NCBI GenBank assembly: GCA_902800215.1
Contig: CADCDS010000013.1
Coordinates: 1-64,000, forward strand
DNA length: 64,000 nucleotides
Reading direction: 5' to 3'
Origin: an uncultured Bacteroidales bacterium
Lineage (GTDB): Bacteria > Bacteroidota > Bacteroidia > Bacteroidales > Paludibacteraceae
The notes beneath the pieces are model-generated. The model saw only the letters and a program-made list of their open reading frames with translations, did no database searches and was not told the DNA's origin. Every line of letters begins with the position of its first letter. Position 1 is the first letter of the stretch. Positions 703 through 62,921 of the stretch are shown here, piece after piece. The translations under genes were made by a program, and so were the position numbers.

Positions 703-2490
703 CTATTCCTCGCTGAAGTGAACTAACACGTGGCGGTAGGAGTTGAAGATCTTGGATTTGGAAACGAAGCCCAAGTAACGGCGTTCTTCATCCACGACGG
801 GTAAGTTCCAGGCTCCCGTATCTTCAAAGGTCTCCATCACTTTCTCCATCGGCATGTTGAAATGCAGGATAGCCGCCGGAGAGGTCATGAGTTGACCCAC
901 CGTGAAGCGTTTGTACAGACGGGGTTGGAACATGATGTTACGCACCTCGTCCAGCAGTAAGATACCCTTGAGATGACCGTCATTGTCGATGACGGGGAAG
1001 ATATTGCGTTTGGAAGTGGAGATGACCTGCACCAGCTGGCCAAGCGTCATCTCGGGGAACACGGTAACAAAATCCGTTTCCAGCACCGCATCCATCTTCA
1101 GCAGCGTCAGCACGTTCCGGTCTTTGTTATGCGTCAGCAGTTCGCCTTTCTGCGCCAGACGCATGGCGTACAAGGAGTGCGGCTCAAAGAGCATGATCGT
1201 CAGATACGAGATCACACTCACGATCATCAGCGGCATAAACAGGTGATACCCGCCGGTGAGTTCCGCGATCAGGAAGATACCCGTCAGCGGTGCATGCATC
1301 ACACCGGACATCAGACCCGCCATACCCACCAACGCAAAATTCTCTTCCGGCACATTGAGACCGGAGAGGTTGAGGACACGCGCTACCACAAAACCGACGA
1401 TGGCACCCATGAAGAGCGAAGGCGCGAAGATACCTCCGACACCACCGGCACCGTTGGTAGCCACCGAAGCCACGATCTTCACGAGGATGATCGCTACAAA
1501 ATAGGCGATTATCAGCCATTGGCTATTGGCCAGTAGCCATTGGCCGTTCGTTAACGGACTATGCTCCATCGCACCGGCACTGTCACCGTTGATGAGTTGG
1601 CGAATCACGTCGTATCCTTCACCGTACAGCGGTGGGAAGAGGAAGATGAGCACACTCAGCGTCGCACCGCCGATAAGCAGTTTGATCCACATGTTCTTCA
1701 CCTTATGCTTCATCCACTGTTCGAGTTTGTTCATGCCCCGGGTGAAATAAAGACTCACCAGACCGCAGACAGCACCTAAGATCAGGTACCATGGGATGCG
1801 GTTCACCATAAACGCCTCCGTGCTCGCCAAGGGGAACATCGGATCCATGCCGGTGAGCATATACGAGATGGCCGTGGCGGTGACAGACGAGATAAGCAGC
1901 GGTGCCACAGAGGTCATGGTAAGATCCATCATCAGCACTTCGAGCGTGAAGACCAGACCGGCTATCGGCGCTTTGAAGATACCGCCTATCGCACCTGCGG
2001 CACCGCAACCGATCATTAGCATCATCGTCTTCTGATCCAACCGGAAAGTCTTCGCTAAGTTCGAACCGATGGCTGCACCCGTCAGCACGATAGGTGCCTC
2101 GGCTCCGACCGATCCGCCGAAACCGATCGTCAGACCGGAACCGATGACAGAGGACCACATGTTATGGGGTTTGATGATCGACTTACGCTGCGAGATGGCA
2201 TAGAGGATCTTCGTGATACCATGCGAGATGTCGTCACGCACGATGTACTTGACGAACAACGCCGCTAAGGTGATACCGATGGCCGGCGTGATGAGGTACC
2301 ACCAGGTGCGGTCATCACCGATCAACTGACCTTCCACCAGACGTTGCAGCAAGTGAATGAAGGTCTTCAGCAATCCCGCCGCAGCAGCTGCAAACAGTCC
2401 TACGAAGAAGGAGAGAAGCAACACCAGATGCTTCTCACTGATATGACGTTCCCGCCATTCGATTAGTTTGTCGTAGAAGGAGTTACTCAT
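703..2490 (-). CDS. ClC-type chloride channel/antiporter with CBS pair
   Basis: This 595-residue inner-membrane protein has a ClC membrane domain at about residues 20-430 and two CBS domains at about 465-590. The ClC selectivity segments are visible as GSVGAEAP (about 126-133) and GGIFAPS (about 352-358). ClC proteins move chloride, often in exchange for protons, and the CBS pair usually senses nucleotides. The start chosen is ATG at 2490, which overlaps the obg stop by 8 nt (ATGAGTAA), implying translational coupling. A longer frame to 2610 runs inside obg and adds only basic, non-family sequence. Residues about 311-326 ([12 protein letters not shown]) are encoded by a short quasi-repeat at 1512-1550 and look like an inserted loop. 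Confidence 0.93.
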
Positions 2491-3658
2491 CCCAACCGAT
2501 GCCTTTATACTTGTCGAGGTCCCATTCTTCCTCAACTTCGTTGAGATAGATGGTGCCTTCCTCTTCTTCCTCACGAGCCTCCGGTTCGTCACGTTCGATG
2601 ACGGTGACATCTATCGGCGCATGAGATATCTCGATCACTTGGTTCTGTTCTTTGTTCAGTTCGGTCCACAGGGCGTCTTTCAGTTCGTCGATACCTTGAC
2701 CGGCCAATGAGGAAATCGGAATAACGGGTATTCCGAGTTCCGCTGTTAGCTGTTGGCAGTTGGCCTTTGGCTTTTCATTGCCTTCTTCATCGATAAGAGG
2801 AACATCGATCTTACTGATCGCCAGAATCCGGGCTTTGGTCAGCAGTTCCGGATTGTATTTCTCCAACTCGCTGAGCAGGATCTTGTACTCCTTGATGATA
2901 TCCTCACTCGTGGCCGGCACCATAAACAGCAGCACGGCGTTACGCTCGATATGCCGCAGGAAACGCAGACCCAGACCTTTACCTTCACTCGCGCCTTCAA
3001 TGATACCCGGGATATCGGCCATGCAGAACGAGCGTCCGTCGCGATAGGAGACGATACCCAGTTGCGGCGTAAGGGTCGTAAACGGATAATCGGCTATCTC
3101 GGGTTTAGCGGCTGACACCACACTCAAGAGTGTACTCTTACCCGCATTCGGGAAGCCTACCAGACCCACATCCGCCAACACTTTCAGTTGCATGATGACC
3201 GTGCGCTCCTGTGCCGGTTCACCCGGTTGTGCATAACGCGGTGCCTGGTTCGTAGAAGTGCGGAAATGCCAGTTGCCTAATCCTCCCCGACCTCCTTTGA
3301 GCAGCACCACCTGCTCGTTATGCTCCTTCACCTCGCAGATGAACTCACCCGTCTCGCCGTCATAGACCACAGTACCGCAAGGTACCTCGATGATCTTATC
3401 CTCTCCGTCTTTACCGAACGAACGGCTTTGACCGCCTTTGCCACCGTCGGTGGCCATGATATGCTTCTGATACTTCAGATGCAGCAAGGTCCAGAGGTTC
3501 CGGTTGCCTTTCAGGATCACCGAACCACCCTTACCTCCGTCACCGCCATCCGGTCCGCCTTTCGGCAGATACTTGGCACGATGAAGGTGCATACATCCTG
3601 CGCCACCCTTTCCCGAGCGGCAGTAGATCTTGACATAATCAATGAAATTGGCACTCAT
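2483..3658 (-). CDS. obg: Obg-family GTPase (ribosome assembly)
   Basis: This 391-residue protein has the glycine-rich Obg fold at about residues 1-160 (many GGxGG turns) and then a GTPase domain: G1 GFPNAGKS (168-175), G3 DIPG (215-218), G4 SKID (282-285) and G5 SSLAG (316-320). The C-terminal tail is acidic. Obg binds the large ribosomal subunit and couples ribosome maturation to GTP levels. It sits upstream of clc with overlapping stop and start, and downstream of adk across a repeat-filled 64-bp gap. Residues about 297-308, between G4 and G5, are encoded by a quasi-repeat (2741-2772) and seem to be an insertion in a surface loop. Confidence 0.96.
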
Positions 3659-3733
3659 AATATTGGCTATTGGCTTTTGGCTATTGGCTTTTGGCCTTTT
3701 GCTAACAGCTAACGGCTAACGGCTAACAGCCAA
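3659..3733. repeat. Quasi-repeat patch between obg and adk
   Basis: The 64-bp gap and the last codons of adk consist almost entirely of 7-8 nt units, first TTGGCTA/TTTGGCT type and then TAACGGC/TAACAGC type. Units of the same kind lie between apt and uvrC (36528-36561) in the same orientation relative to the genes. No promoter box is seen here. Confidence 0.75.
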
Positions 3734-5635: not shown

Positions 5636-5667
5636 ATGATTTGCATTTATGGTTTCTGATTACGCTG

Positions 5668-5698
5668 CAAAGATACTGCTTTTTTTGCAGATATGCAA
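5668..5698 (-). promoter_or_regulatory. Promoter of the SDR gene
   Basis: Minus strand TTG (5696-5698), 20 nt ending AAAAAAAGCAG, then TATCTTTG (5668-5675). It is divergent from the rhomboid promoter 30 bp away. Confidence 0.75.
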
Positions 5699-5726
5699 AT
5701 AAAACACCTAAAAAAACGGAAAATTC

Positions 5727-5757
5727 TTGCGTATGTCATAAAAAAGCAGTACCTTTG
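5727..5757 (+). promoter_or_regulatory. Promoter of the rhomboid gene
   Basis: TTG (5727-5729), 20 nt, TACCTTTG (5750-5757). The gene's ATG is at 5766, only 8 nt after the box, so the mRNA should have almost no leader. Confidence 0.75.
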
Positions 5758-5765
5758 CAGCCGTT

Positions 5766-6503
5766 ATGAGAAATTTACCGATAGTAACGCGCTATCTGTT
5801 GATAGCCAACTTTATTGTTTTTCTGCTGGATGCGGTGTTGCTGAAATACAACATCCAATTGTCCGATTACTGCGGATTGCATTACATGGGCGCAAGCTCG
5901 TTCCATGTATGGCAACCGATCACGTATATGTTCCTGCATGCGAACTTCTGGCACCTGTTCTTTAACATGTTCGCCGTGCTGATGTTCGGTCCGTCGATCG
6001 AACGGGAGTTCGGTACCCGGCGGTTCATCATCTATTATTTCCTCTGCGGTATCGGCGCCGGTATCGTGCAGGAGATCGTATGGGCGTGCATGAACGTTCC
6101 GTTTGTACTGCAACCGCTGCTGAACACCATCGGTGCTTCCGGTGCCGTCTTCGGTATCCTGTTGGCTTTCGGTTGGATGTTTCCGAATGTACCGATGTTT
6201 CTGTTCCTCATCCCGATACCTATACGCGCACGCGTGTTCGTATTATTATATGCAGGAATTGAGTTACTGGAAGGTCTGCAAGCCGCCCGTGGTGCATCCG
6301 GCGATAACGTAGCGCATTTTGCGCACTTGGGCGGTTTCCTGTTCGGATTACTGATTATCCTGTACTGGAAACATACCAACTGGCGAGAACCGCAATATGG
6401 GTTATATTGGGATAAGTTCAAGAGTCTGTTCCGTCGCCGCCGGCGGTTAGACAGTTCGAAAGATTCGGATTTCGATAAATACCATTACCACAAGCGGGTG
6501 TAA
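5766..6503 (+). CDS. Rhomboid-family intramembrane serine protease
   Basis: This 245-residue polytopic membrane protein has the rhomboid signature: HLFFNM with the HxxxN pair (about residues 64-68), the nucleophile motif GASG (within TIGASGAVFG) and the catalytic His in AHFAHLGG near the last membrane helix. Rhomboids cut substrates inside the membrane; the substrate here is unknown. Helix count and length fit a six-helix bacterial rhomboid, followed by a basic, Arg-rich cytoplasmic tail (FRRRRR). It is a single gene, convergent with DUF4294, and its ATG lies directly after the promoter -7 box. Confidence 0.92.
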   Translation: MRNLPIVTRYLLIANFIVFLLDAVLLKYNIQLSDYCGLHYMGASSFHVWQPITYMFLHANFWHLFFNMFAVLMFGPSIEREFGTRRFIIYYFLCGIGAGIVQEIVWACMNVPFVLQPLLNTIGASGAVFGILLAFGWMFPNVPMFLFLIPIPIRARVFVLLYAGIELLEGLQAARGASGDNVAHFAHLGGFLFGLLIILYWKHTNWREPQYGLYWDKFKSLFRRRRRLDSSKDSDFDKYHYHKRV

Positions 6504-10429: not shown

Positions 10430-13400
10430 TTATTTTACAATCAGTTTATGAATCTCCGGCATTCCCTCTTCGGTCATCACCATCACGAAGTACAATCCCG
10501 GAACACGGGGTGCTGCGATGGTAGCCGTCTGTTGCAGTTGTGTCAAGTCTGCGATCTTCTCTCCGGCAAAGGAGATGATCTGCGCTTGCTGTGCACCTTC
10601 TATCGTCAAGGTGTTACCGGCATCCACCGGTACCGGATAGACGTTCGTCAGTTGCGGAGCGGCATTACCGCTACCGGTAGGTAACGTGATCTCGCAGGAA
10701 CGGTATTCATCGCCGTTCTCCGCCGTCAGCATCACGTAGAAGATACCGGACAGGGCCACACCGTTCTGATGGTAATACTGCTTGGTCTCGCCTTCCAGGA
10801 TCTGACCGTCTTTGTACCACTGGTAAGCGACAAACTTCAGTTTCTCAGCTCCACCGGTAATCAGTCCGTTATCGGGGTTATTGTCCACAAAGAGTACCCG
10901 GTCATATTTGGTGTGCAGGTATCCGCCTAAACTGAAGGTAACCTGTTTCTTAGCCGGTTCGCTGTAACAGATCTCATCGGTAGCACCACCACCGGTGTAA
11001 CCCAGTTCCAGTTCCAAATAGCAGTCACCGACACCGATCGGCGGCATGTTCTCCAATAGGATCAAACCGGGACGGGTGATTGTTCCGACGGTATCCTGAC
11101 GACCCATAAACGCCGCCATATCGGGAGAGAACGTGATGCGGAAGGTATTGGACATTCCGGCTGTCTGCACGAACTCCAAGGCCATCGTTCCCGTTTCCTG
11201 ACACACATGTACCGGCGATGTATCCATGGTGAACTTCGGCATCTCGGCGATACGAACGATGAACACGCTGTCAACAGGACAGTCTTCCGTGGTCTCCGTT
11301 ACCGTCCATGCTTCTCCGTCATAGGTGAAGGTATGTGACTCCGTCTGACCGGAAGCGTAGGTGTGTTGCAGCGTATAAGGCATACGTTCTTTGCAGATCG
11401 TCATCGTCACTTCATGGCGTTGTGACTTACCGTAATACTGCTTCACCTCACCTTCCGACAGCTCCCATGCGCAATCCGGATTAGAATTCCGCACGTAACG
11501 GGTGTACGTATAGGTGGTACCCAAACGAATCTCACTCATCGGGAAGGTGTAGTTCAGTTCCGCCTCGTCACCGATGACCACGTTACCCGGTGTGCGCACC
11601 CAGCGGTAGACCACTCCGTCAGCACAGGTAGCTGCTTGGGTCTCATGGATCACGATAGTTGCCGTCGTTCCACTGGTGGCGTCGGCATCGAAGCAGTAGT
11701 TATCTCTTGTCTCACTCTCAATAGCACCGGCTGTCAGCGATGCCATGATATAGATCGTCTTACTGTAACGCGTCTTCTTCCACGTCGTGAAACGGGTGTT
11801 ATCTTGTGCTTCGCGGGTGAAGATATACGTATGTCCGGCAGCCAGGTTCAGACCGTTCAGACTGAGGTTTTGACTTGTAGCGCCGCTAATCAATTGTCCG
11901 TCCATGAACCAACGGTACTGGATTGTTCCGGCACCGCCTTTAGCTTTGGTGGCGGTCACTACATATGCCTTGGCATCGTCCACCGTACAGAAAGTCTGGT
12001 CAGCACGGTCGGTAATCTCACCCGGATCAATGGAGTCGAAGGCAAGCACGGTATAGACACCTAAATCCTCCAGACTATATTCCGGTACATAACAGATACT
12101 ATCCCGTGTGCCACGGGTGAAGTTATACTCACCGGCCTTGGTGATCGGGTAACCGATTAATTCCAACTGCGTCTGCGAAAGGATAGAGTCACCATTCACG
12201 AACCATTGATAGTACACTTGTCCGGCACCGCCTACAGAAGCTTCGCTGCCGCTGGTACTAACCAACACCGGTACCTGATCCAAGAGGATGGTATCCTTTT
12301 TGTTCTCAATCGTACCGGGGATGAAACGACCGTACACGTAGTATTCCAAACCGGTTTTATTCTCTCTCCAGTCGGTAGCACATCCGTTATCATGCACAAA
12401 ACTGCGGATGAAGAAATGACCGGCGGTATCGGTAGGAATAAGACAGGTGTCGAACCAATGGAGATAATCGCTCTTGGGAGCATCCGCCAGCATCGTATCC
12501 ATCACCACAGTGTCCGTTTCCGTCACTTGGTAACGAAGCACCTGATAGTGATGATCCTCGTCACCCATCCATCCATATTGCGCTAACTTCATCTGCACGT
12601 CATCCTTCATCGGCTCGTAGGAGTTATAGCAGAAAAACAAGGTCACATCCAATGCTCCTGTTTCAAGATCCCGGCCGATAAACTCACCCGGCACCAGATC
12701 CTCCACACGTCGGGGATTGAAATAAAGCACACGGGTCTCATCATGCAATCGGGCATCTGCCAATATAGGGTTGGGAGCACACGGACGAACGACTTGCACC
12801 TCTCCATCGGCATTATTGAAATACAACCACGTGGTATCTTCCTGTTTCTGACAATTCCATGCGATGCCATTCTCGATGCTAACCGAGAAATCCAGGGTCA
12901 CATCATTGGCATGCTCTACGGGATTTGTTCCGATAGAATCGAGGAAAACCGGCGCTGCAGACAAAGCCGCAGCGTTTGTGGCCGCAAAGGCATCCAGCAC
13001 CGGATAGCGTGTAGCCGCATGGCTCCATACCGCATTACCGTTGAAGAGCGAGAACATATATCGTGTACTGTCCACCGGCGTGATGACATTGCCTTCCACA
13101 CCCGATTTCTGCAGATATAGTTTTCGGTCAAAATAGCATTCGTTATACGTACCGCCGTTATCTTCTCCAACGATGGCATGACCGTCTTCTCCGGAAGCAT
13201 AACCGATGTTATACACACGCTCCAGCGTACCGCCATTAGTACCTACTATACCACCGACGATGCTGGAGGTGTTATTCAGATAACCCGAATGGTAACAATC
13301 CTGAATCCGGCCATTTGCCGTCAATTCACCTACCAAGCCTCCGGTACTGTTACCCGTCGTCACGAACTGCGCCATCGACCAGCATTGCGAAATCGTTCCG

Positions 13401-13864: not shown

Positions 13865-13890
13865 ACAGTTGATAATTACAAAATCGGCCG

Positions 13891-13921
13891 CAAAGGTACG
13901 AAAAAAAAATGACATACACAA
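13891..13921 (-). promoter_or_regulatory. Promoter of the T9SS cargo-OmpA-proS-DUF4294 unit
   Basis: Minus strand TTG (13919-13921), 20 nt, TACCTTTG (13891-13898). The -33 box lies inside the terminator hairpin of the upstream peptidase gene. Confidence 0.75.
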
Positions 13922-13930
13922 GAGTGTATG
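13902..13930 (-). terminator. Intrinsic terminator of the M13 peptidase gene
   Basis: CATACAC / GTGTATG (13913-13919 and 13924-13930) form a perfect 7-bp hairpin with a 4-nt loop. On the minus strand it is followed after TCA by nine T residues. It starts 26 nt beyond the peptidase stop and overlaps the next promoter. Confidence 0.75.
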
Positions 13931-13956
13931 CCACTTTTTTATGAAAAAACCATGTT

Positions 13957-17091: not shown

Positions 17092-17130
17092 TAAACCTAA
17101 ACCTTAACTATGAAAATTTTGTTTTCGGTG

Positions 17131-17161
17131 CAAAAGTACTGCTTTTATTTGAATTAACCAA
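17131..17161 (-). promoter_or_regulatory. Promoter of the small ORF-greA-HIT unit
   Basis: Minus strand TTG (17159-17161), 20 nt ending AAAAGCAG, TACTTTTG (17131-17138). It leaves a leader of about 105 nt before the small ORF. Confidence 0.75.
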
Positions 17162-17196
17162 ATATTTTGGCAAAAAAATGCAAAATTTCTTCTTTT

Positions 17197-18516
17197 TTAC
17201 ACGATTTCGCCCCTTAATGTAGCCGCAGACGCTTCTTTTACGCGTACTTGCACGATATCTCCTATCTTCTGGTCGGTGCGTGGAAAGACTACTGTCTTGT
17301 ATTGTTCCGTACGACCGTACATGTCGTCGTGACTGCGTTTGGAGAAACCTTCTACCAGCACTTCCACTATCTTTCCTATCTCCCGTTGGTTGGATTCTAA
17401 AGAGAGTTGGGTCTGCAAGGCGATGATCTCGTTAAGGCGTCTCACTTTCTCTGCTTCATCAATATTATCCGGCAGGTGCTTATGGGCGTAGGTACCGGGA
17501 CGTTCCGAATATTTGAACATGAATGCCGAGTCAAAACCCACTTCCCGCATCAGACTGAGTGTCTGTGCATGATCTTCCAAGGTCTCGTCATGGAAACCGC
17601 AGAAGATATCGGTACTGATGGCTGCAGTCGGTAAAATACGACGGATTGCCGCGATACGGTCCAGATACCACTCCCGGGTATATTTGCGGTTCATGAGTTT
17701 GAGGATATGATTCGAACCGGACTGCACCGCCAAGTGAATGAACTTACAGAGGTTCTTATGCCGACTGATAGCCTCCAGTGTCTTATCCGACATGTCCTTT
17801 GGATGCGAAGTGGTAAAGCGTATCCGCATATCCGGTACCGTGTCTGCCACAATCTCCAACAAGTCTGCAAAATCCACATCTCCGAACTTATAGGAATTGA
17901 CATTCTGTCCCAGCAATGTCACCTCTTTATATCCGCGTGCCTGCAAATCGCGTACTTCATTCAGGATCGACTCCACATCTCGGCTCCGTTCCCGACCACG
18001 GGTGTATGGCACCACGCAATAGGAACAGAAATTATTACAACCGCGCATGATGGAGACAAATCCGCTGATGGAACGACCGATACGGGACGGAATGATCTGA
18101 CGATAGGTCTCCGTAGTACTCAATTCCACGTTCATCGCTTTATGTCCCTGCTCGCATTGCGCCAACAGGTTAGGGATATCCAGATAAGCATCCGGACCGG
18201 CTACAAAATCCACACCGAACGTATCGATCAACTCCTTTCCCATTCGCTCAGCCATACAACCGATGACACCAATGATAGGTCGTTCGCTTTTCGGCTTTTG
18301 CTCTTTCGCCATCAAACCATTCAATTCCCTCAAACGAGAACCCACTTTCTGTTCCGCGTTATCACGGATGGAGCAGGTGTTCAACAGCAGAATATCGGCA
18401 TCTTCCCAACGGTCAGTAATCTGAGCGTCCGTAGTCTCCAAAATAGCAGCTACCACCTCGCTATCCGCGACGTTCATTTGGCATCCGTATGTCTCAATAT
18501 AAAATTTTTTACTCAT
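17197..18516 (-). CDS. miaB: tRNA-2-methylthio-N6-isopentenyladenosine37 synthase MiaB
   Basis: This 439-residue radical-SAM enzyme adds the methylthio group to A37 of tRNAs reading UNN codons. The N-terminal UPF0004 domain supplies three cluster cysteines (YGCQMN, NTCSIRDNAEQK, GCMAERMG). The radical-SAM motif is CNNFCSYC, followed by VPYTRGRERS, and a TRAM domain ends the protein. The start is ATG at 18516 (MSKKFYIETYGC); an upstream in-frame start at 18534 would add six residues. It is transcribed away from tRNA-Pro. Confidence 0.96.
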   Translation of the reverse strand: MSKKFYIETYGCQMNVADSEVVAAILETTDAQITDRWEDADILLLNTCSIRDNAEQKVGSRLRELNGLMAKEQKPKSERPIIGVIGCMAERMGKELIDTFGVDFVAGPDAYLDIPNLLAQCEQGHKAMNVELSTTETYRQIIPSRIGRSISGFVSIMRGCNNFCSYCVVPYTRGRERSRDVESILNEVRDLQARGYKEVTLLGQNVNSYKFGDVDFADLLEIVADTVPDMRIRFTTSHPKDMSDKTLEAISRHKNLCKFIHLAVQSGSNHILKLMNRKYTREWYLDRIAAIRRILPTAAISTDIFCGFHDETLEDHAQTLSLMREVGFDSAFMFKYSERPGTYAHKHLPDNIDEAEKVRRLNEIIALQTQLSLESNQREIGKIVEVLVEGFSKRSHDDMYGRTEQYKTVVFPRTDQKIGDIVQVRVKEASAATLRGEIV

Positions 18517-18541
18517 TTTTGTTAAAAAAAACACAAAATGC

Positions 18542-18572
18542 TTGCGTATGTCAATTTTTTGTAGTACCTTTG
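18542..18572 (+). promoter_or_regulatory. Promoter of tRNA-Pro
   Basis: TTG (18542-18544), 20 nt, TACCTTTG (18565-18572). The leader then forms a small hairpin (CTTTCG 18579-18584 with CGAGAG 18591-18596) just before the tRNA. Confidence 0.75.
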
Positions 18573-18600
18573 CACCCGCTTTCGAAAAAACGAGAGTGTT

Positions 18601-22772: not shown

Positions 22773-23247
22773 CTTTCACAATCTCCACACCTATATCCGT
22801 CACACCTTGCAACAAGGTATCCCGCATGCCATGCCGGATAGCCAGTTGATAGGTTCCCGTATCCGCAAAATGAATATGACGACCAAAAATCACCGGCACT
22901 TCCATAAAGGCATTATGTTTGTTTCCCAACCATCTTCCCCGTTCATCGGCAAGATAGAACTGAATCGTATCCTGTTTGGCACTGTCTCCGACAAAAAGCC
23001 ACATGTTCTGATACGGATACCGGTCAGTATGACGGACATAAATATTCATCTGATAACCCAATGCCGTATCGGCTATCTGATACTCAAAATGAGCCACAGA
23101 ATCCATATGCCAATTTCCCGATGAAGTAATCGTTCCGTCAGGATAAGAAATCGAAGAAAATTGACTATACACAATGTCGTTTTTGCACGAAGTTAGAGTC
23201 AAACAACCAATAACCAATAACCAATAACCAATAACCTTTATTCTCAT
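22759..23247 (-). CDS. gldH: Gliding motility lipoprotein GldH
   Basis: This 162-residue lipoprotein has a signal ending LTSC. The mature part matches GldH by [31 protein letters not shown] and the C-terminal [21 protein letters not shown]. GldH is required for gliding and supports T9SS function; it is also kept in non-gliding Bacteroidota. The hydrophobic core of the signal peptide ([10 protein letters not shown]) is encoded by four tandem copies of an 8-nt unit (23204-23236). It overlaps ricT by 4 nt, a neighbour pair common in the phylum. Confidence 0.9.
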
Positions 23248-33611: not shown

Positions 33612-33613
33612 GT

Positions 33614-38374: not shown

Positions 38375-38381
38375 GAATTAA

Positions 38382-38873: not shown

Positions 38874-38878
38874 TACAC

Positions 38879-39529: not shown

Positions 39530-39531
39530 AG

Positions 39532-43960: not shown

Positions 43961-43995
43961 AATAATTATCAATTATCAACTATCAATTATCAACT
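43961..43995. repeat. Quasi-repeat patch before the EamA stop
   Basis: Units AATTATC, AATTATCA, ACTATCA, AATTATCA fill the gap between two minus-strand genes and touch the last codons of the transporter. Confidence 0.7.
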
Positions 43996-44907: not shown

Positions 44908-44909
44908 CT

Positions 44910-46034
44910 CTAATCCCTAATCTCTACTTCCTCATCTCTCTCCACGATCCACCATCCTACAACCGGCCGCAAGGCGCGTGTACTGTCTTCCTCGAAACCT
45001 ACCAGACCCGCAAGGATATCCAGGTCATACACTGTGCCGTCCCAATCCGTGTACTTCAGCGGTGCGGTACCCGTTTCCGGCGCCAGATCGCGGATGTCGG
45101 TATCGTAGATAAAATCGAGTTTTCTGCGGTTGTTATTGTTGGTATACGGGTAGAACTTCACAATCCAGCCGTTGATCTCTTCATGCGGCGGTGTAAATCC
45201 GCACATCTCCTGGCCTTCTACCGGCAGGTCTTTCTTATGGATGATGGATTGCCAGAAAACGATATCGTCCTCTCCTTCGGCGGCAAGGGCGATCTTTTCC
45301 AGTACCGGTTCTAGTTCGTCGATCCACCAATCCAGATCGTATTCCCGCAACTTTTGGGTCTTGTCGATCAACCGTCTCCAGTCGGCTGCCGTTCCCTCCA
45401 AGTAGATGTCCGGAATACCGCAGATACAGATGATCGAGTACTCGAAATAATGCTGCATCGCACTCATGATCAAGATGTTCGATGCGATGTGCGCTGTCGG
45501 TGTCGTCGTCGAAAAATCCGCTTGCAGCGTCTCTAACAACGTACTATCCATCCATTGTTTCATCTGTTCGGTGAATTTCGGGAAGAACGGTGCCCATACG
45601 TCTGCCGGTTGACCTAACAGACTCGTCATGCAGGTCAGCTCAAGCGTCTCCTTACCCTTGAAAGGAACGAACTTACTGCGTAGCTCTTCCGCGTTCGCAT
45701 CTACGTGGTGGGCAAATCCGCTTTCGATCACCATCCATACCACATCGGGGTTGATCACCAACGGACGGTGCTGCGCATAGGCGGTACGGGCACTCATCAG
45801 GAACGGGTTCGAGCAATAAGCGATGCTGTCTGCCAAGTCCGAATGCACGATCAGCCGGTCGTGCAGATAGTAAAAATGCTTTTCCGGTGTCGCTTTAACC
45901 AACGCGGCATCTACCGCAGGCAGATCCGTCAAGTGAATCACTCGCATGGCCGTTTTCTCCTGCGTCTCAGAACTCTTCTGACCGCACCCTGCCATGCACA
46001 TAACTGCAAGCGTTAATACCAATACCTTTCTCAT
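44910..46034 (-). CDS. Lipoprotein of unknown function (DUF4419-like length)
   Basis: This 374-residue lipoprotein has a signal ending MAGC. The mature part is mixed alpha/beta, with NPDVVWMVIESGFAHHVDANAEELRSK as its most distinctive segment, which brings to mind DUF4419 proteins; I am not certain of that. The last residues (RDEEVEIRD) are encoded by a quasi-repeat at 44907-44943. It is 2 nt upstream of the EamA gene. Its promoter (46052-46082) originally faced another promoter now split by an IS. Confidence 0.72.
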   Translation of the reverse strand: MRKVLVLTLAVMCMAGCGQKSSETQEKTAMRVIHLTDLPAVDAALVKATPEKHFYYLHDRLIVHSDLADSIAYCSNPFLMSARTAYAQHRPLVINPDVVWMVIESGFAHHVDANAEELRSKFVPFKGKETLELTCMTSLLGQPADVWAPFFPKFTEQMKQWMDSTLLETLQADFSTTTPTAHIASNILIMSAMQHYFEYSIICICGIPDIYLEGTAADWRRLIDKTQKLREYDLDWWIDELEPVLEKIALAAEGEDDIVFWQSIIHKKDLPVEGQEMCGFTPPHEEINGWIVKFYPYTNNNNRRKLDFIYDTDIRDLAPETGTAPLKYTDWDGTVYDLDILAGLVGFEEDSTRALRPVVGWWIVERDEEVEIRD

Positions 46035-46051
46035 AACCTGTAATTTTGGCG

Positions 46052-46082
46052 CAAAATTACTGCTTTTTTTTGAATTGTGCAA
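46052..46082 (-). promoter_or_regulatory. Promoter of the 374-aa lipoprotein gene
   Basis: Minus strand TTG (46080-46082), 20 nt ending AAAAAAAAGCAG, TAATTTTG (46052-46059). Its -33 box is back to back with the TTG at 46090-46092. Confidence 0.72.
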
Positions 46083-46158
46083 ATTTTATTTGCATTTTCC
46101 ATAGATTTTTGTTGCTATCGAAAAAGTAGACACTTGAGGTAGAAAAAATATCGTACGC

Positions 46159-47843: not shown

Positions 47844-47882
47844 AGTTTAGCTGGATTTTTTTTGCAAATCTTGCCGTTTTAT

Positions 47883-47913
47883 TTGCACATGTCATTTATT
47901 TTTTGTACCTTTG
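47883..47913 (+). promoter_or_regulatory. Promoter of the AAA_14 ATPase gene
   Basis: TTG (47883-47885), 20 nt, TACCTTTG (47906-47913), followed by the GCAGCGGATTTT leader shared with other island genes. Confidence 0.75.
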
Positions 47914-47938
47914 CAGCGGATTTTAAAATTACTTCATT

Positions 47939-53116: not shown

Positions 53117-53238
53117 TAGACGCATAAGGGTCTTATCGGTATCGCATCGGGGGAATGTCGTATCCCACCCATACCTATAATATATATTTATATATATTAT
53201 CCCGTGATTTTGAAATTTTACCCGTCAAACAACGTAAA

Positions 53239-53735: not shown

Positions 53736-54620
53736 ATGGAATATATATCCGTCATACAGTTTGCCGAAAAGTACGGCATTAGCGAACGAACCGCACGAAA
53801 TTATTGTGCGGCAGGGAAGATAGATGGTGCCTTTCTGACTGGCAAAACATGGAATATCCCTGTGGATGCAGAAATAGTCAAAAGTCGAAAGTCGAAAGTC
53901 GAAAATCCATTATTGTTCCGTTTGCGTGAGGAGAAAGAATCTCGTCTCAAGGGCGGTATCTACCATCGTACGCAGATAGATCTGACCTATAACTCCAATC
54001 ATATCGAAGGCAGTAAACTGACCAAAGAACAGACACGCTATATCTTCGAGACCAACACACTGGGTGTCACAACCGAGAACACTTCTGTCGATGATATCAT
54101 GGAGACGATCAACCACTTTCGCTGCATTGATTATGTCATCGACCATGCGACGGATAAGATCACCGAGGCACACATCAAACAACTCCACGCTATCCTCAAA
54201 ACGAACACTTCCGACAGCCGCAAGGATTGGTTTGCCATAGGTGATTATAAACGCCTTGCCAACGAGGTAGGCGAACAAGAAACGGTTGATCCCAAAGACG
54301 TTCATCGAGCCATGAAAGCCCTGCTCTCCGACTATAATACGCTCCGCCAAGTGACGTTCGATGACATACTGGATTTCCATGTGCGTTTCGAGCGTATCCA
54401 TCCTTTCCAAGACGGGAATGGTCGTGTAGGGCGTCTGCTGCTCTTCTGGCAATGTCTGCAAAATGCGCAAGTACCGTTTATCATTACCGACAAACTGCGT
54501 CTCTACTACTATCGCGGCCTGCAAAACTGGGGCGACACCAACGGCTATCTCCGTGATACCTGTCTCACGGCACAAGATCATTATAAAGCCTTATTGGACT
54601 ATTTTAAAGTAAAATATTAA
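53736..54620 (+). CDS. Fic-family protein with N-terminal DNA-binding-like region
   Basis: This 294-residue protein starts at ATG 53736. Residues about 1-45 form a helix-turn-helix-like segment (VIQFAEKYGISERTARNYCAAGKI). The Fic domain follows, with the active-site motif HPFQDGNGRVGRL intact (about residues 226-238). Fic enzymes transfer AMP or related groups to proteins. The inhibitory-helix-type motif is not obvious to me, although YNSNHIEGSKLT before the core is the segment usually seen in Fic/DUF4172-like proteins. No antitoxin gene adjoins. Residues VKSRKSKVENP are encoded by a quasi-repeat (53877-53909). Confidence 0.9.
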   Translation: MEYISVIQFAEKYGISERTARNYCAAGKIDGAFLTGKTWNIPVDAEIVKSRKSKVENPLLFRLREEKESRLKGGIYHRTQIDLTYNSNHIEGSKLTKEQTRYIFETNTLGVTTENTSVDDIMETINHFRCIDYVIDHATDKITEAHIKQLHAILKTNTSDSRKDWFAIGDYKRLANEVGEQETVDPKDVHRAMKALLSDYNTLRQVTFDDILDFHVRFERIHPFQDGNGRVGRLLLFWQCLQNAQVPFIITDKLRLYYYRGLQNWGDTNGYLRDTCLTAQDHYKALLDYFKVKY

Positions 54621-55849: not shown

Positions 55850-56725
55850 ATGCAGTTTGAGATTATACAACCGATAGAGGCGTTGAGGCCGTATATCACA
55901 CGGTATGTGTTTGTGCGGGCAGACGGGTCGACGGATACCATGCGACCACCGGAGGATGATCCGCATTTCGTGAACGGGAAGCATGTTCAGACCTTGCTGC
56001 CGAACTACGGAAGTCTGATCTTCATGCGGAACGTAAAGGTGGACATGAACGGTACGGAGTCCGACGGACTGACGTTATTGGGTGCGTACCAAAAAGCGAT
56101 TGGTCTGACGACCCTGAACGGCTGGTTTGAAGGGATGCTGTTGGACTTCGAGCCGGGAGGCATGCATGCGTTGTTAGGGATTGAGTTGCAGCAGTTGGAG
56201 GGTCAGGTGTTGACGGCGAAGGAGTACGGCGATGTGGGGTTGATGACGCTGGACGGCATCTTCAAGCAGAACGAAAAAGCGGAAGAGATAGCGGGACTGA
56301 TGGATGCGTTCTTCTTAGGTCACCTGCCACATAAAGAGGACATGAACTACACGCGCATGAAAAAGGTGATCGCAGCGTGCGATGCGGCGAAAGGCAATAT
56401 CAGTGCAGCGGATATGGCGAGTGTGGCATGTCTGGGTGAAAGGCAGTTTTTGCGCGTGTTCAAACAGTACGTCGGTATGGCACCGAAAGCGTTTATCCGG
56501 TTGAGGCGGTTCCACAAGACGATACAAGACTTAAGGGTTACGGGTGAAAGGTTACGGGTGACGGGTGACGGAAAGATCGATCTGATGGGGATTGTGCTGG
56601 AACACGGGTACTATGATCTGAGTCATGCGGCGTTGGAGTTTCAGCAGATGGGATGCGTGAGTCCGAGTCACTTTAGGATGCTTGGGATACCGTTGAGTGA
56701 GGATTTTTCGGTCTTTTTTGCCTAA
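55850..56725 (+). CDS. AraC-family transcriptional regulator
   Basis: This 291-residue protein has an N-terminal sensing domain of the DUF6597-like kind (QPIEALRPYITRYVFVRAD) and a C-terminal AraC double helix-turn-helix (ISAADMASVACLGERQFLRVFKQYVGMAPKAFIRLRRF). The linker before the second helix-turn-helix (DLRVTGERLRVTGDGK) is encoded by a quasi-repeat at 56531-56571, an unusual place for an insertion because it lies inside the DNA-binding unit. Its targets are unknown; the next two genes are candidates. Confidence 0.88.
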   Translation: MQFEIIQPIEALRPYITRYVFVRADGSTDTMRPPEDDPHFVNGKHVQTLLPNYGSLIFMRNVKVDMNGTESDGLTLLGAYQKAIGLTTLNGWFEGMLLDFEPGGMHALLGIELQQLEGQVLTAKEYGDVGLMTLDGIFKQNEKAEEIAGLMDAFFLGHLPHKEDMNYTRMKKVIAACDAAKGNISAADMASVACLGERQFLRVFKQYVGMAPKAFIRLRRFHKTIQDLRVTGERLRVTGDGKIDLMGIVLEHGYYDLSHAALEFQQMGCVSPSHFRMLGIPLSEDFSVFFA

Positions 56726-57313: not shown

Positions 57314-59788
57314 ATGAAAAAGATTGGTTTGGTAACTTTGGCTCTGCTGGCGTTCGGATGGCTGTCCGCGTCAGCTGAGACCATTAAAGGAAATGTAATC
57401 GACGCGAATGGCGAAGCGATGCCGTTCGTGACGATTTCTGTTTTGACACAAGACTCCACCTTGATCACCGGTGCAATCACCGATGATAACGGTAATTATG
57501 CCGTTGAGGTGCAAAATGCAAAGGATCTAATCATTCAGGCATCCTATGTGGGTTATGTGACGGCGTTCGGCGGACCGGATTTCGTGTTGCGCGAAGAGAC
57601 GGAAAAGTTAGCGGAAGTGGAGGTCAAAGCGAAGAAACCGCTGATAGAGCGGCAGATGGATAAGTTAGTAGTGAACGTGAGTGCAAGTCCCTTATCGGCC
57701 GGCAGTAACGGAAACGATATCTTACGTCGTGCGCCGGGTGTGCGGATTGACAAAGACGGGAATATCACGGTGAACGGAAAGAGTGTGGAGGTGTACGTGG
57801 ACGGTAAACCGTCGTACTTGAGCGGTCAGCAGCTGAAGGCGATGTTAGACGGAACGGACGGCAACACGATCGAGAAGATAGAGATCATCTCGAACCCGAG
57901 TGCCAAATACGATGCATCGGGTTCCGGCGGAATCATCAACATCAAGACGAAACGGAACATGATGCAGGGTCTGAACGGTATGTTGAGTGCCGGGTATGGA
58001 GGTATGTATTTCGGCGACATCAAACGATGGTTGAACATGGATATGGTGTCGCTCAATCTAAACTACCGCGGAGAGAAGACCTATACCTTCGGTCAGTTGA
58101 CGCAGGTGTACGCAGAGAACGATGTGGATTTTACCACGTACCGCAAGACGCCGATGACGGAAGGCTTGTCAAAATCGGGATACGACATCGGTTTTCAGTA
58201 CTACATGGTGAAGGTGGGTAACGACTGGTATATCGACAAGAAGAACACCTTGGGATTCATCTTGCAGGTACCGTACATGAAGATGAATCAGAACAGCGAT
58301 GCGGAGCGGAATGAGGCATGGACGTACGATGTTGCGACGGGAGACACGGCACGGAGTATCTCGGTCACACAGACGCATTATAAGGCACCGCAGCACACGG
58401 CGAACCTGAACTACACGCATATTTTTGACGAGGAGTTGGATCGGGAGTTGACGGTGAACGTCGATTTTAACCGCTACAACAACCAGTCTGCAAACATGCA
58501 GAAGACGAACTACATAGGGGATAAGTTGCAACAGTTGGATATCAACAGCAAGCAGGTAGCGGATATCTATAGTGCGAAACTCGACTTCCAAACCAAGTTC
58601 TGGCAGACGGGTTTGTTGGAATGCGGTGTAAAATATGCATTGTCTTCGACGGATAACCAGATGACGACGGACTCGACGGTGAATGAGACGCTGATCAGCA
58701 GTACCCCTTCGAATTTCTTATACCAGGAACATGTCGCTGCGGCGTATATATCGGCCGGAAAGCAGTTCGGTGAACACTGGTCCGTTAAATTAGGTCTGCG
58801 CGGTGAATACACGTTCAGTCACGGCGACTGGAAGAGTGCGGACAGCGTGACGAACAAGAGTTATTTCGATCCTTTCCCGACAGCGTATATCGGTTACACG
58901 AGTAGTCCGTTAGGTAAGATTGGTCAGCCGATCAGCGTGAGTGCCAGTTACACACGGCGTATCAAACGGCCGAACTACTGGATGCTGAATCCGTTTAGGC
59001 AGTACACCGATGCGTACAGTTATCAGGAAGGAAACACGGAGTTGAAACCCGAATACAACAACGACGTGGAGATCAATTTCAGTTGGACGCAGTACCTGAA
59101 CATGACGTTTAACTTCGGTCACACGCAGGATATGTTCTCCCAACCAGCGACGATCCTGCCGGACGGAATGGGGTACGTGAAATGGAAAAATTTCGGTACC
59201 TGCACGACGCACGGTATCAATGTGTCGCTGACGGAGTTGCCGTTGGTACCCAAGTACGCGTCGATGCCGGACGGTACGCGTATGATGCAGGGAGCATGGT
59301 TGGCATTGACGGTGAACGGCGGATGGATGCATTTTATTAACAAGTCCTATGAGAAAGATGTAGCCGGTAAACCGGTGTATGAGAACCGGAACCATTACGG
59401 TCATGTAGGCGGTACTTTATCGGCGTACTTACCGAAGGACTGGACGATGACGTTGGATGCCAACTGGTCAAGTCCGATGACGACGGGTTATGACCGGGAC
59501 GGCGGCATGTATTTCATGAATTTCGGTGTACGGAAGATGATCATGAGTAAGGGTCTGATCCTGAATCTGAACGTACAGGATCTGGCACGGAGTATGAGTT
59601 TCGAGACCCATAACGAGGGCATGCAAGAGGGGTATGCAAGTTGGTACAAGAACACCGTGCGGAGTCAGAAAGTGATGCTGAGCGTGACCTGGATGTTCGG
59701 TCAATATCAGCAACACCAGCAACGGAAAGTGGGTGATATGGATGAGTTAGACCGCTTAGGAGGAGGCGGAGGTGTGAAGACCAATTAG
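57314..59788 (+). CDS. TonB-dependent receptor-like outer-membrane beta-barrel protein
   Basis: This 824-residue protein has a signal peptide, an N-terminal carboxypeptidase-regulatory-like domain (IKGNVIDANGEAMPFVTISV, about residues 24-105), a plug domain (DKLVVNVSASPLSAGSNGNDILRRAPGV, about 115-210) and a C-terminal OMP_b-brl_3-type barrel. It probably imports an unknown ligand with TonB energy. No SusD partner is adjacent. It ends in a glycine run (GGGGGVKTN) and overlaps the convergent esterase gene by 33 nt. Confidence 0.9.
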   Translation: MKKIGLVTLALLAFGWLSASAETIKGNVIDANGEAMPFVTISVLTQDSTLITGAITDDNGNYAVEVQNAKDLIIQASYVGYVTAFGGPDFVLREETEKLAEVEVKAKKPLIERQMDKLVVNVSASPLSAGSNGNDILRRAPGVRIDKDGNITVNGKSVEVYVDGKPSYLSGQQLKAMLDGTDGNTIEKIEIISNPSAKYDASGSGGIINIKTKRNMMQGLNGMLSAGYGGMYFGDIKRWLNMDMVSLNLNYRGEKTYTFGQLTQVYAENDVDFTTYRKTPMTEGLSKSGYDIGFQYYMVKVGNDWYIDKKNTLGFILQVPYMKMNQNSDAERNEAWTYDVATGDTARSISVTQTHYKAPQHTANLNYTHIFDEELDRELTVNVDFNRYNNQSANMQKTNYIGDKLQQLDINSKQVADIYSAKLDFQTKFWQTGLLECGVKYALSSTDNQMTTDSTVNETLISSTPSNFLYQEHVAAAYISAGKQFGEHWSVKLGLRGEYTFSHGDWKSADSVTNKSYFDPFPTAYIGYTSSPLGKIGQPISVSASYTRRIKRPNYWMLNPFRQYTDAYSYQEGNTELKPEYNNDVEINFSWTQYLNMTFNFGHTQDMFSQPATILPDGMGYVKWKNFGTCTTHGINVSLTELPLVPKYASMPDGTRMMQGAWLALTVNGGWMHFINKSYEKDVAGKPVYENRNHYGHVGGTLSAYLPKDWTMTLDANWSSPMTTGYDRDGGMYFMNFGVRKMIMSKGLILNLNVQDLARSMSFETHNEGMQEGYASWYKNTVRSQKVMLSVTWMFGQYQQHQQRKVGDMDELDRLGGGGGVKTN

Positions 59789-60541
59789 GAATTGTCTTAA
59801 GCACTGTTGCCACATAGTCCAGTTATGCTTCCCATGCAGTTCGATGAACGTGTGTGGGAAGTTGTTTTTTAGCATGCGTTTATGAAACCTCTTTCCATTC
59901 GGTTTTAAAAAATCCTGCTTACCGATATAGATGGAGTAATGGAGGTTGGAGTCTTTGGGCAGTTGGGCCTTATAGAGAACGGGAGAGAAGAGACCTACTT
60001 CATGGATACGATCGGGCCGGTAGTTAGCGATGTTCGCAGCGATGCGTGCACCGTCACTCAGACCGGCAACAGCACAGGTGGTAGGGTGGTAGAGGCTGTC
60101 GATGCTGTCGATGAGGAGACTAACCGACTTCTCGATCTGATGCTCATGACTCATGAAGGGATAGCGGATGACGGACTTCCACAGTTTCTTATGACACGGT
60201 CGCTCTTTGATCACCCACCGGTTACAATCGGGCATGACGAGGATCATGGGTTCGCATAGACCAGCCGCTATCATCTCCTCCAATATCTCTGCGGCGTGAC
60301 CTAGTTCCGTCCATGATCCTTCGTACCCGTTGATGCCGTGAATAAGGTAAAGCACCTTCATCCCTTCACCATTAACCATTCGCCTTTCGCCATTAGGAAT
60401 ATAGATATCGACCCGGCGAGAGATGTTCTCGTCGGGACAATACCAGGATGAATGGATGATTTCAGGCGGTGTGCTTGTAGGTTCGGATGCGCTTACTATC
60501 AGTGGAAGCAGCGACAGGAGTAGGAAGAAGAACTGTCTCAT
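59756..60541 (-). CDS. Secreted esterase (alpha/beta hydrolase, CE1-like)
   Basis: This 261-residue protein has a signal peptide (MRQFFFLLLSLLPLIVSAS) and an esterase D-like hydrolase domain: YLIHGINGYEGSW (oxyanion loop), the nucleophile elbow GLSDGA, and the late His in HGKHNWTMW. Members of this group remove acyl or feruloyl groups from polysaccharides. A quasi-repeat at 60362-60398 encodes NGERRMVNGEG in a loop before the first core strand. Its start lies 80 nt inside the end of the upstream glycosyltransferase gene. Confidence 0.86.
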   Translation of the reverse strand: MRQFFFLLLSLLPLIVSASEPTSTPPEIIHSSWYCPDENISRRVDIYIPNGERRMVNGEGMKVLYLIHGINGYEGSWTELGHAAEILEEMIAAGLCEPMILVMPDCNRWVIKERPCHKKLWKSVIRYPFMSHEHQIEKSVSLLIDSIDSLYHPTTCAVAGLSDGARIAANIANYRPDRIHEVGLFSPVLYKAQLPKDSNLHYSIYIGKQDFLKPNGKRFHKRMLKNNFPHTFIELHGKHNWTMWQQCLRQFLIGLHTSASS

Positions 60542-61867: not shown

Positions 61868-62830
61868 TTAACTCATCTCGAGCATGCGCTGAATGGATGA
61901 AATAGCTTTTTCGGCAATTTCTTTGTCCACGTGCATCTCCGGCGATTCGTTAAGCAGACAGTTATAGAGTTTTTCGAGCGTATTCATGCGCATGTACTCG
62001 CATTCGTTGCACGAACAACCTACACCTTCGGTTATTTCCGGCGGAACGGGGATAAACTCCTTATCCGGACAGGCGCGCTGCATCTCAAAGAGGATACCCG
62101 ATTCTGTGGCTATTATAAAGCGTTTGGCGGACGATCGGATGGTGTGCTCGAGTAGAGCTTTGGTTGAACCTATTACGTCGCTCTGCGCCAAGACAGGTGC
62201 CTTACATTCCGGATGTGCCAGCACTTCTACACCCGGGTTAGCGGCTTTGAGTTGGAGTAGGGCTTCCAAAGAGAAACGGCTGTGCACATGACAAGCACCG
62301 TTCCAAAGGATCATATTCCGACCTGTGACGGAATTTATGTACGAACCAAGGTTATGATCGGGACCGAAGATAATCTTGGCGTCCTTCGGCAGCTGATCGA
62401 CTATCTTCTTCGCATTAGAAGAGGTAACTACTACATCCGTCAGCGCTTTTACGTCCGCTGAGGTGTTGACGTAACTTACCACGATAATTTTCTCATTTTC
62501 GGATTTTCTTATTTCCTCATTTATAAAAGCCGCCAAGTCCTCAGCCTTACAACTATCCGCCAACGAGCAGCCGGCATTCATATCCGGGATCAGCACTTTC
62601 TTTTGAGGACAGAGGATCTTCATCGTCTCTCCCATGAAGTGCACACCACACATGACCAATATATCCGCGTCTATGCGTGTAGCCTGTTGCGCAAGAGCCA
62701 GAGAATCTCCGATGAAATCGGCGCATTCTTGTATTTCAGGACGGGTATAATAATGCGCAAAAATAACGGCATTTTTCTGCTTGGCCAGACTACGAATTTT
62801 ATCTATATATTCTTTACTTTTTAAATCCAT
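61868..62830 (-). CDS. nadA: Quinolinate synthase
   Basis: This 320-residue [4Fe-4S] enzyme makes quinolinate for NAD synthesis. Conserved parts include FAHYYTRPEIQECAD, MCGVHFMGETMKILCP, NGACHVHSRFS and VGCSCNECEYMRMN, which supply the cluster cysteines. It needs NadB and NadC, which are not in the window. Residues EEIRKSENEKI (about 103-113) are encoded by a quasi-repeat (62487-62522) in a loop before the strand IIVVSYVN. Confidence 0.95.
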   Translation of the reverse strand: MDLKSKEYIDKIRSLAKQKNAVIFAHYYTRPEIQECADFIGDSLALAQQATRIDADILVMCGVHFMGETMKILCPQKKVLIPDMNAGCSLADSCKAEDLAAFINEEIRKSENEKIIVVSYVNTSADVKALTDVVVTSSNAKKIVDQLPKDAKIIFGPDHNLGSYINSVTGRNMILWNGACHVHSRFSLEALLQLKAANPGVEVLAHPECKAPVLAQSDVIGSTKALLEHTIRSSAKRFIIATESGILFEMQRACPDKEFIPVPPEITEGVGCSCNECEYMRMNTLEKLYNCLLNESPEMHVDKEIAEKAISSIQRMLEMS

Positions 62831-62867
62831 GATAATAATAGGATGTAGAAAATGTTAATAAGTCTGT

Positions 62868-62921
62868 TAACTGTTTGATTTTGTTTGAGATAGTTTGAAA
62901 GTTTGATGGTTTGATTTTTGT
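62868..62921. repeat. Quasi-repeat patch in the nadA-corA gap
   Basis: Units GTTTGATT, GTTTGAGA, AGTTTGAA, AGTTTGAT, GGTTTGAT in tandem. The rest of this 161-bp gap is AT-rich with two half-parS-like sequences (62945-62975); I see no gene or terminator. Confidence 0.65.

Follow-up and report, generated by a model that had tools for sequence, protein, structure and literature searches.

The genome of an uncultured Bacteroidales bacterium (GenBank assembly GCA_902800215.1; Paludibacteraceae; 1.96 Mb, 85% complete) contains a dense, dispersed population of short tandem arrays that repeat with a seven-nucleotide step, lie between genes as well as in frame inside conserved genes, and differ between near relatives at one and the same site. 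We studied these arrays in a 64,000-nt stretch of the genome (contig CADCDS010000013.1; hereafter, the window), in which an initial annotation had listed about 19 patches of imperfect 7–8 nt units and proposed a micro-repeat that arises by slippage or repair or is mobile, and compared them with 864 kb of the source genome and with its relatives (L and a number denote a locus, G and a number a genome, relatives and source genome alike). Shuffled sequences, array densities and indel sizes bear out a lineage-specific micro-repeat that acts at the DNA level and changes in unit steps. The explanation that we favor, with a probability of about 55%, is an ongoing, lineage-specific mutation process at the DNA level, in which slippage or templated synthesis in 7-nt steps is combined with some copying between loci and with filtering for reading frame.

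Period-7 arrays in the window and across the lineage

Each patch was scored as the best identity over 21 positions at lags of 6–12 and 14, and Tandem Repeats Finder was also run. At the best period, 18 of the 19 patches scored at least 15/21 (13 of period 7, four of period 8, and one of period 11); the remaining patch (39061–39092) was marginal, with 14/21 at period 7. The chance level of runs with at least 16/21 was taken from 100 codon-shuffled and 100 synonymous-codon (protein-preserving) versions of the window, the gap DNA being regenerated each time from a first-order Markov chain. The window holds 13 such runs of period 7, compared to 0.17 (maximum 2) in codon-shuffled and 0.38 (maximum 3) in synonymous versions, so that codon-matched shuffling, the test proposed in the initial annotation, comes nowhere near the observed number. 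For period 8, four runs were found (0.14, maximum 2, codon-shuffled; 0.16, maximum 2, synonymous). The single period-11 run (0.20, maximum 1; 0.16, maximum 2), in tsaB, exceeds chance only at its own score (at least 17: one versus 0.02 in both types of shuffle). Because the synonymous shuffles abolish the period-7 runs, the signal sits in the DNA and not in the encoded peptides, and the micro-repeat patches are confirmed as a real observation. Lysine- and glutamate-rich peptides are common in protein loops, which is a point for protein-level low complexity; this account, chance, and assembly artefacts are nevertheless extremely improbable, given that synonymous shuffling removes the runs, that the pattern occurs in many separate assemblies, and that near-relative pairs agree in their array at 10 of the 32 sites that could be placed.

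At a cut-off of 17/21, 172 period-7 arrays were found in the 864 kb of the source genome, compared to 42 of period 8, 14 of period 11, and at most nine of any other period from 4 to 30. Both minor classes are above the outgroup samples, and period 11 also occurs 21 times in 716 kb of genus loci. Called genes, identified with a simple purpose-written caller that missed some genes, make up 90.5% of the DNA; 90 of the 172 arrays lie wholly within them, 32 across gene ends, and 50 in intergenic regions. Gaps are thus enriched in arrays, although half of the arrays are still in genes.

The array excess is lineage-specific and graded by relatedness. In the same scan, the density of period-7 arrays per 100 kb was 19.9 in the source genome and 9.5 in the genus loci, in contrast to 0.31, 0.50, and 0.51 in outgroups from the order (20 genomes), class (10), and phylum (10), which were sampled at 16–40 kb per genome in 40 genomes of other families. 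This corresponds to ratios of about 40–64x for the source genome and 19–31x for the genus loci. Nine arrays were found in 61.6 kb of G146 (same genus, 100% complete) and four in 320 kb from eight other genera of the family. A whole-genome index pattern gave 207 counts per Mb in the source genome and 4.2 per Mb in the outgroup samples. Over 61 genus genomes the index ranged from 0 to 205 per Mb (median 26.8), with 12 genomes below 10, near the outgroup level, and five above 100. Its median was 49 in the 13 genomes whose GldB is at least 70% identical (source genome included) and 13 in 17 others (p = 0.0013). The backward pattern used as a control, with counts of the same order across the genus genomes, is itself heptameric and therefore not a clean control. 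The close relatives of its GldB come from uncultured Bacteroidales and Paludibacteraceae bins, and the names of many of these refer to rumen or other gut sites.

The arrays draw on a narrow choice of units. Merging rotations and strands, we counted 65 distinct units among the 172 arrays, compared to a mean of about 158 for as many random genomic 7-mers; the commonest are GGTTACG (19/172), GGAGATT (16/172), and AGCCAAC (10/172), followed by GGCGAAA, GTCGAAA, and GGTGAAA. The shared form RGNNRAN given in the initial annotation, in any rotation and on either strand, fits 80 of the 172 consensus units (22% of random 7-mers), and the looser RGNNANN fits 123 (39%). Adjacent units drift along an array while the phase is kept (e.g., window 38815–38873; L098 4916–4970). 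The claim that the purine-rich strand is the sense strand in nearly all coding cases is real but partial: it applies to 57 of 81 internal coding arrays and, among the 42 arrays whose perfect unit can be read through on either strand, to 31 and not to 11. Stop codons account for part of this bias, GGTTACG being oriented as it is because the unit is open only in sense, and amino-acid composition could explain the remainder. The tsaB patch, previously set apart as the exception to the bias, belongs to the minor period-11 class.

Turnover between near relatives and in-frame residues

To follow individual arrays, seven near-relative groups were scanned for arrays of period 7, 8, or 11 with at least 16/21 (an eighth pair, L049/L051, gave none). 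Fifty-two of 78 arrays were placed by their flanks (identity 79–99%), and 26, including the window array at 44432, were dropped because they could not be placed, lay outside the shared stretch, or had diverged too far. The 52 rows were collapsed by hand into 32 distinct sites, and some machine labels were changed in cases of an identical unit. Ten sites were unchanged and 22 differed: five in copy number, six in carrying another unit, four by divergence, and seven in being array-less in the other genome, which may reflect gain or loss. The second SufS array was scored as unchanged on the basis of L041/L044; L049 lacks it.

Length changes follow the unit. A 113-kb near-relative alignment contained 31 clean indels (at least 8/10 identical bases on each side), 19 of them 1–3 nt long, and the 12 of at least 4 nt comprised three of 7 nt, four of 21 nt, two of 11 nt, and one each of 4, 10, and 50 nt. 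Seven of these 12 thus correspond to 7 or 21 nt, that is, to whole units, and most, though not all, of the 12 lie within arrays; the 7-nt indel between L041 and L044, one of the three, does not represent a tandem copy. Other sites carry unrelated arrays. In the esterase frame (60362–60398, minus strand), the window has a GGCGAAA/GGTTAAT-type array and the near relative an ATTGGAG array between flanks that are 98–99% identical. Homologous exchange between related species could import alleles with other arrays, the arrays themselves being old and slow, and several changed sites do lie in locally diverged DNA (87.6% identity at 43935–46112 versus 94.6% at 29568–40542). However, this explanation is quite unlikely considering the nearly identical flanks of the esterase array and the unit-step indels between otherwise near-identical alleles, and it leaves the origin and the lineage-specific excess of the arrays unexplained.

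Among the 13 period-7 patches of the window (score 15–21), unit-step differences are seen at the GGTTATR array at the start of gldB (39533–39567, plus strand) and at the array that grades from GGAGATT to GTAATTC over the 3' end of tsaE and the following gap (38815–38873, plus strand), at both of which the near relative has one additional 7-nt unit. Other units occupy the same place at the AGCCAAC patch in obg (2741–2772, minus strand; a GCGCAAC array in L069) and at the AGCTAAC/AGCCAAA array between apt and the next gene, presumably uvrC, which was named by eye only (36528–36561, plus strand; a GGTTAT-type array in the near relative). The period-7/14 patch at the 3' end of the DUF4419 gene (44907–44943, minus strand) is almost the same in the near relative, and the TTGATAA array in a gap (43961–43995; score 19 at lag 7) has no comparable site there. 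The remaining period-7 patches are those in the ClC channel gene (1512–1550, minus strand; 16/21 at lag 7), the adk–obg gap (3659–3733; see below), the N-terminal end of the gldH frame at 22759–23247 (a perfect GGTTATT array; 23204–23236, minus strand; score 21 at lag 7), the endonuclease-like gene (AGTGAAA/AGTTAAA; 42131–42166, plus strand), the Fic-domain gene (AGTCGAA; 53877–53909, plus strand; score 20 at lag 7), and the HTH_18 regulator gene (GGGTTAC/GGGTGAC; 56531–56571, plus strand; 17 at lag 7 and 18 at lag 14), together with the esterase array.

The four period-8 patches lie in the endonuclease-like gene (42385–42424, plus strand; score 19; identical in the near relative), the EamA gene (44432–44468, minus strand; score 16; a GACTCCT array at this site in the near relative), nadA (62487–62522, minus strand; score 16), and the gap adjoining nadA (62868–62921; score 16; diverged in the near relative). 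At the nadA site, the near relative, L043, and L058 carry other arrays, and L054, L060, and L079 carry none. The period-11 patch in tsaB (21371–21406, minus strand) scores 18 at lag 11 and 9 at lag 7. The marginal period-7/14 patch lies in the gene of a LolD-type ATPase (39061–39092, plus strand), which is as long as its array-less orthologues. Profile matches were over cut-off for Obg, TsaB, GldH, Apt, TsaE, GldB, and SufS, and below it for the LolD-type ATPase and the ClC channel; further names checked were adenylate kinase, endonuclease/exonuclease/phosphatase, EamA, DUF4419, Fic, HTH_18, esterase, and NadA.

The presence of additional in-frame residues in conserved genes, as proposed in the initial annotation, is supported by length differences at orthologue-aligned sites. 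The 710 called genes of the window and 42 genus loci contain 28 arrays that keep a distance of 45 nt or more from the gene ends. An orthologue could be anchored for 21 of these arrays, and for 17 of the 21 the orthologues shown (seven at most) included one with no array. These 17 arrays represent ten distinct sites (collapsed by hand), and at six of them the array bearer exceeded the majority of the array-less orthologues shown by 21 nt or more. The difference was 33 nt at one SufS site and 24–36 nt at a second, 30 and 45 nt in NadA, 39 nt in a gene of L053, and 21 nt in the endonuclease compared to the nearest orthologue, although only 3–15 nt compared to two others. TsaE of L075 was 36–42 nt longer, yet 12 nt shorter than that of L074, its nearest relative, where a different insert is present. 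Since gene lengths were measured in codons, the multiples of three hold by construction.

Different arrays may occupy the same position of one protein. Between KAGVISFNV and HPFD of SufS, L041 has FDSQKSKVESRKPTEGLI, L040 and L060 have other arrays, and L049, L079, and the window have only a few residues. The AGTCGAA array at the second SufS site is common to L041, L044, L061, and L067, and its absence from L049 may consequently be a loss. The initial annotation had asked whether distant Bacteroidota carry the same residues at the same positions; within the genus, to which this comparison was confined, orthologues have no array or another one at many sites. Cases to the contrary are 42385, 39061, and 44907, which are the same or nearly so in the nearest relative, and the NGERLM stretch of patch 39061 is also present in L080. 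In a model of the endonuclease-like protein with moderate confidence (71.9), one patch (residues 132–143) lies at a strand end and in the next loop and the other (residues 217–230) in a long loop; the AlphaFold model of SufS was poor (pLDDT 54), and no placement was taken from it. SufS of L056 also has a composite insert at about 13262–13303, 114 nt longer than L061, in which ATCAACT arrays flank an inverted-repeat spacer and the frame stays open. Another insert type, a hairpin-like CCCTCCCTGAAAGGAGGG piece, occurs in another SufS loop of the same locus (12439–12486), with partial matches in L061 (14043–14075) and L052 (11347–11383) in the same loop by position.

Probable copying between loci and the origin of the arrays

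Right behind a stop codon, where the window has nothing (59788–59789), the near relative (G041) has a 62-nt hairpin composite of heptamers, which is 86% identical over 58 nt to window 3669–3726, a different locus. The latter lies within the composite of the adk–obg gap (3659–3733; score 19), which forms an RNA hairpin with a mismatch at about every seventh base and folds at −35.5 kcal/mol (z = −6.4 versus shuffles); two further composites fold at −30 and −19.4 kcal/mol (z = −5.3 and −3.7). A regulatory or structural function under selection (binding sites, RNA hairpins, or G-rich structures) would agree with this folding and with the over-representation of arrays between genes (50/172 at 90.5% gene coverage). 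It is nonetheless very unlikely as a general explanation, because more than half of the arrays (90/172) are wholly within called genes, 22 of the 32 placeable sites differ between near relatives with seven array-less in one of them, and units such as AAAATGA and AATTTGA have no G runs.

A mobile micro-element, in which an enzyme would insert short heptamer cassettes, as has been suggested for the palindromic coding elements of Rickettsia, is favored by the 30–45 nt length differences at sites where the array-less form retains little or nothing, by the clean hairpin composite behind the stop codon and its counterpart in the window, and by the L056 composite with its mixture of arrays and inverted-repeat spacer. 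On the other hand, the cases inspected by eye have neither common ends nor a consistent target duplication, the lengths vary from 21 to 62 nt over many unit families, and neither the source genome nor the array-rich G146 has a reverse transcriptase match; we consider such an element unlikely. No mobilizing enzyme was identified, although transposases were not searched for.

The order of units provides additional evidence of copying. Early tests were confounded by array ends and codons and were later split by context. Among 168 arrays, 59 pairs had a unit order in common, compared to 22 for reversed arrays and 19.8 in 12 shuffles (maximum 29). The excess was largest in coding pairs of the same sense and frame (16 versus 1 reversed and 1.4 shuffled) and in pairs of opposite sense (13 versus 2 and 2.6); pairs that are not both internal-coding gave 26 versus 15 and 12.2. 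By context, the shared order was longer rather than shorter than for reversed arrays in 47 versus 16 cases in genes and in 19 versus 5 at gene ends. Donors for four non-array pieces were sought in about 12–21 kb per genome; three pieces matched only themselves and the fourth gave two partial matches. Copying of arrays as the dominant source was rejected because the order signal fails for intergenic arrays. Copying between loci is likely, and weak outside genes; a role as the main source goes beyond the present evidence. Of the origins considered in the initial annotation (slippage, repair, or mobility), 7-nt steps hold for length change, and copying is indicated in addition.

The process that we favor would begin with a polymerase that, during replication or the repair of a gap, slips or changes its template by some seven bases. 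Each new unit would then be an imperfect copy of the one made before it, and the step would be 7 nt and less often 8 or 11 nt. Arrays would grow and shrink by whole units, and some arrays or pieces would be copied elsewhere, probably by short-patch template switching at shared micro-homology. This last step follows the idea of short-patch illegitimate recombination, for which no literature was found among the matches listed. Selection would discard outcomes that break the frame or contain stop codons, and for this reason the survivors, which we assume to be neutral, would be in frame and mostly in length-variable loops and protein ends.

Several results weigh against this process as a complete explanation. 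Four of the ten in-gene sites show no consistent length gain: LolD of L052 gains 0 nt, the endonuclease patch at 42131 (array in none of the seven orthologues shown) differs by 0 nt from five orthologues, −3 from L040, and −24 from the near relative, a third SufS site differs by −3 nt, or by 0 from L039, and the EamA site by −9 to +12 nt. Slippage alone explains neither why so few units are used (65 of 172 distinct versus 158 for random 7-mers) nor how unrelated units come to stand at one site between 98–99% identical flanks, as in the esterase. The order signal is also uneven, with no excess for same-sense pairs in other frames (4 versus 4 reversed and 3.5 shuffled), no significant order sharing for intergenic arrays alone (19 versus 14, p = 0.51), and little for intergenic pairs (4 versus 2 and 2.0). 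Order sharing within genes may therefore reflect frame selection, and coding constraint can contribute to it. Finally, the responsible enzyme was not found among the candidates tested (reverse transcriptase, MutS, DinB, and PolA). A tentative and rather doubtful alternative is that whole arrays, genic and intergenic, are swapped at fixed sites for unrelated ones from a genome-wide heptamer pool by templated short-patch copying with a 7-nt register, a process that would have expanded in a gut Paludibacteraceae lineage and would rewrite loops of conserved proteins.

Candidate enzymes were compared across genomes. A reverse transcriptase (telomerase-, diversity-generating-retroelement-, retron-, or group II-like) was rejected, with no RVT_1 match in the 85% complete source genome or in the complete G146; RVT_1 matches occur in 12 of 31 family genomes. 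Loss of MutS is no explanation, as the source genome encodes two proteins with MutS_V, presumably MutS1 (873 aa) and MutS2 (768 aa); MutS_V matches were found in 60 of 60 phylum genomes. DinB is present in one copy in the source genome and in 27 of 31 order genomes, and is thus not lineage-specific. Pfam identifies no 3'-5' exonuclease domain in PolA of the source genome (L229:276–2585, 769 aa), whereas that of G011 (878 aa, compared as L230) has kept a weak one. Among the 61 genus genomes, excluding five with a truncated or unmatched PolA frame, the median array index was 11.4 in eight genomes with a frame of at least 850 aa and 33.5 in 48 with a shorter frame (p = 0.011). Because this difference vanishes among less related genomes (median 9.5 in seven versus 11.8 in eight, p = 0.69), it was not taken as support, and frame length is a poor proxy (the 887-aa PolA of G008 also has no exonuclease match). 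Loss of PolA proofreading as the cause is accordingly not supported.

Apart from the arrays, the window contains other dispersed repeats, mostly of 30–100 nt (5664–5770, 13877–13940, 17127–17200, 18532–18589, 46048–46098, 47850–47928, and 53129–53218), each with several to many matches in the genome of the near relative. The repeat at 5664–5770 carries long inverted repeats at its termini; it folds at z = −7.7, and 13877–13940 at z = −3.8; 17127–17200 and 53129–53218 were folded and show no excess structure. Rfam at gathering scores identified only two tRNAs in the window.

Comparison with known heptamer repeats

Reports of heptanucleotide repeats in bacteria go back years, and no mechanism has been established for them. 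The narrow unit choice and the different arrays at one site make the present arrays of interest, and the genus, with its dozens of related species and with arrays that differ although their flanks are nearly identical, makes the origin of a 7-nt repeat directly testable. The arrays also suggest a route by which SufS, NadA, and other conserved proteins gain 7–15 new residues, and they are a warning that peptides of this kind, where annotated in this group, can be products of events at the DNA level. The initial annotation knew no name for the repeats, which was partly right: heptanucleotide repeats have been described in cyanobacteria, where short tandemly repeated repetitive (STRR) sequences are tandem heptanucleotides like those found here, in Xanthomonas, in Beggiatoaceae, and in a few Bacteroidetes.

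Seven is the commonest unit length of long simple sequence repeats in most prokaryote genomes, and polymerase interaction and slippage have been suggested as the cause of heptanucleotide repeats (Mrazek et al. 2007, as cited in passages of PMC4679880 and PMC4692102). The slippage in 7-nt steps proposed here is close to that general account. Head-to-tail 7-nt units above chance and length changes by whole units are shared with this class, whereas perfect or near-perfect units are not the rule (20 or 21/21 in only 32 of 172 arrays), and most of our arrays are imperfect, with 122 of 172 inside or across called genes. A comparison with classical phase-variable contingency loci, in which copy number changes between strains switch a gene on and off, covered one genome per species; the gldB and tsaE ends were seen to differ by one unit between near relatives.

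The GGGAATC and GGGGA(C/T)T repeats of Xanthomonas and Nostoc are similar in being genome-wide heptamers that vary in length and sequence between close relatives; as described in passages of PMC4692102, which also mentions three Calothrix heptanucleotides, they have one G-rich unit type per genus and are under-represented on the coding strand in genes. In contrast, our arrays use many units, and half of them lie in genes. Doublets of GGGAATC, GGGGACT, and GGGGATT, in that phase, were absent from the 864 kb of the source genome. The TAACTGA direct repeats of Beggiatoaceae, Cyanobacteria, and five Bacteroidetes, including Paludibacter propionicigenes, likewise form sets of heptamers with repeat-less sites in near relatives, and their mechanism is not known; they differ in having one unit and, in the Guaymas filament, a mostly intergenic location (passages of PMC4679880). 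No TAACTGA doublet was found in 864 kb of the source genome and 716 kb of genus DNA, and none of the five heptamer units named in these passages of PMC4679880 and PMC4692102 occurs as a doublet here.

Rickettsia palindromic elements, described in part of PMC2996958 as palindromic selfish coding elements, share with our arrays the addition of in-frame residues to conserved genes. They differ in that the arrays are not a single palindromic coding family (65 units among 172 arrays): the length differences are 21–45 nt, the units are many, and palindromy was seen only in the three intergenic composites, the only arrays on which folding was tested. Dense, multi-unit, intragenic heptamer arrays in Bacteroidales were not found among the openly licensed literature matches listed, which is weak evidence of absence. 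Compared to these systems, heptamer repeats as such are already known, whereas dense arrays of many units that are largely intragenic and are replaced at fixed sites look new.

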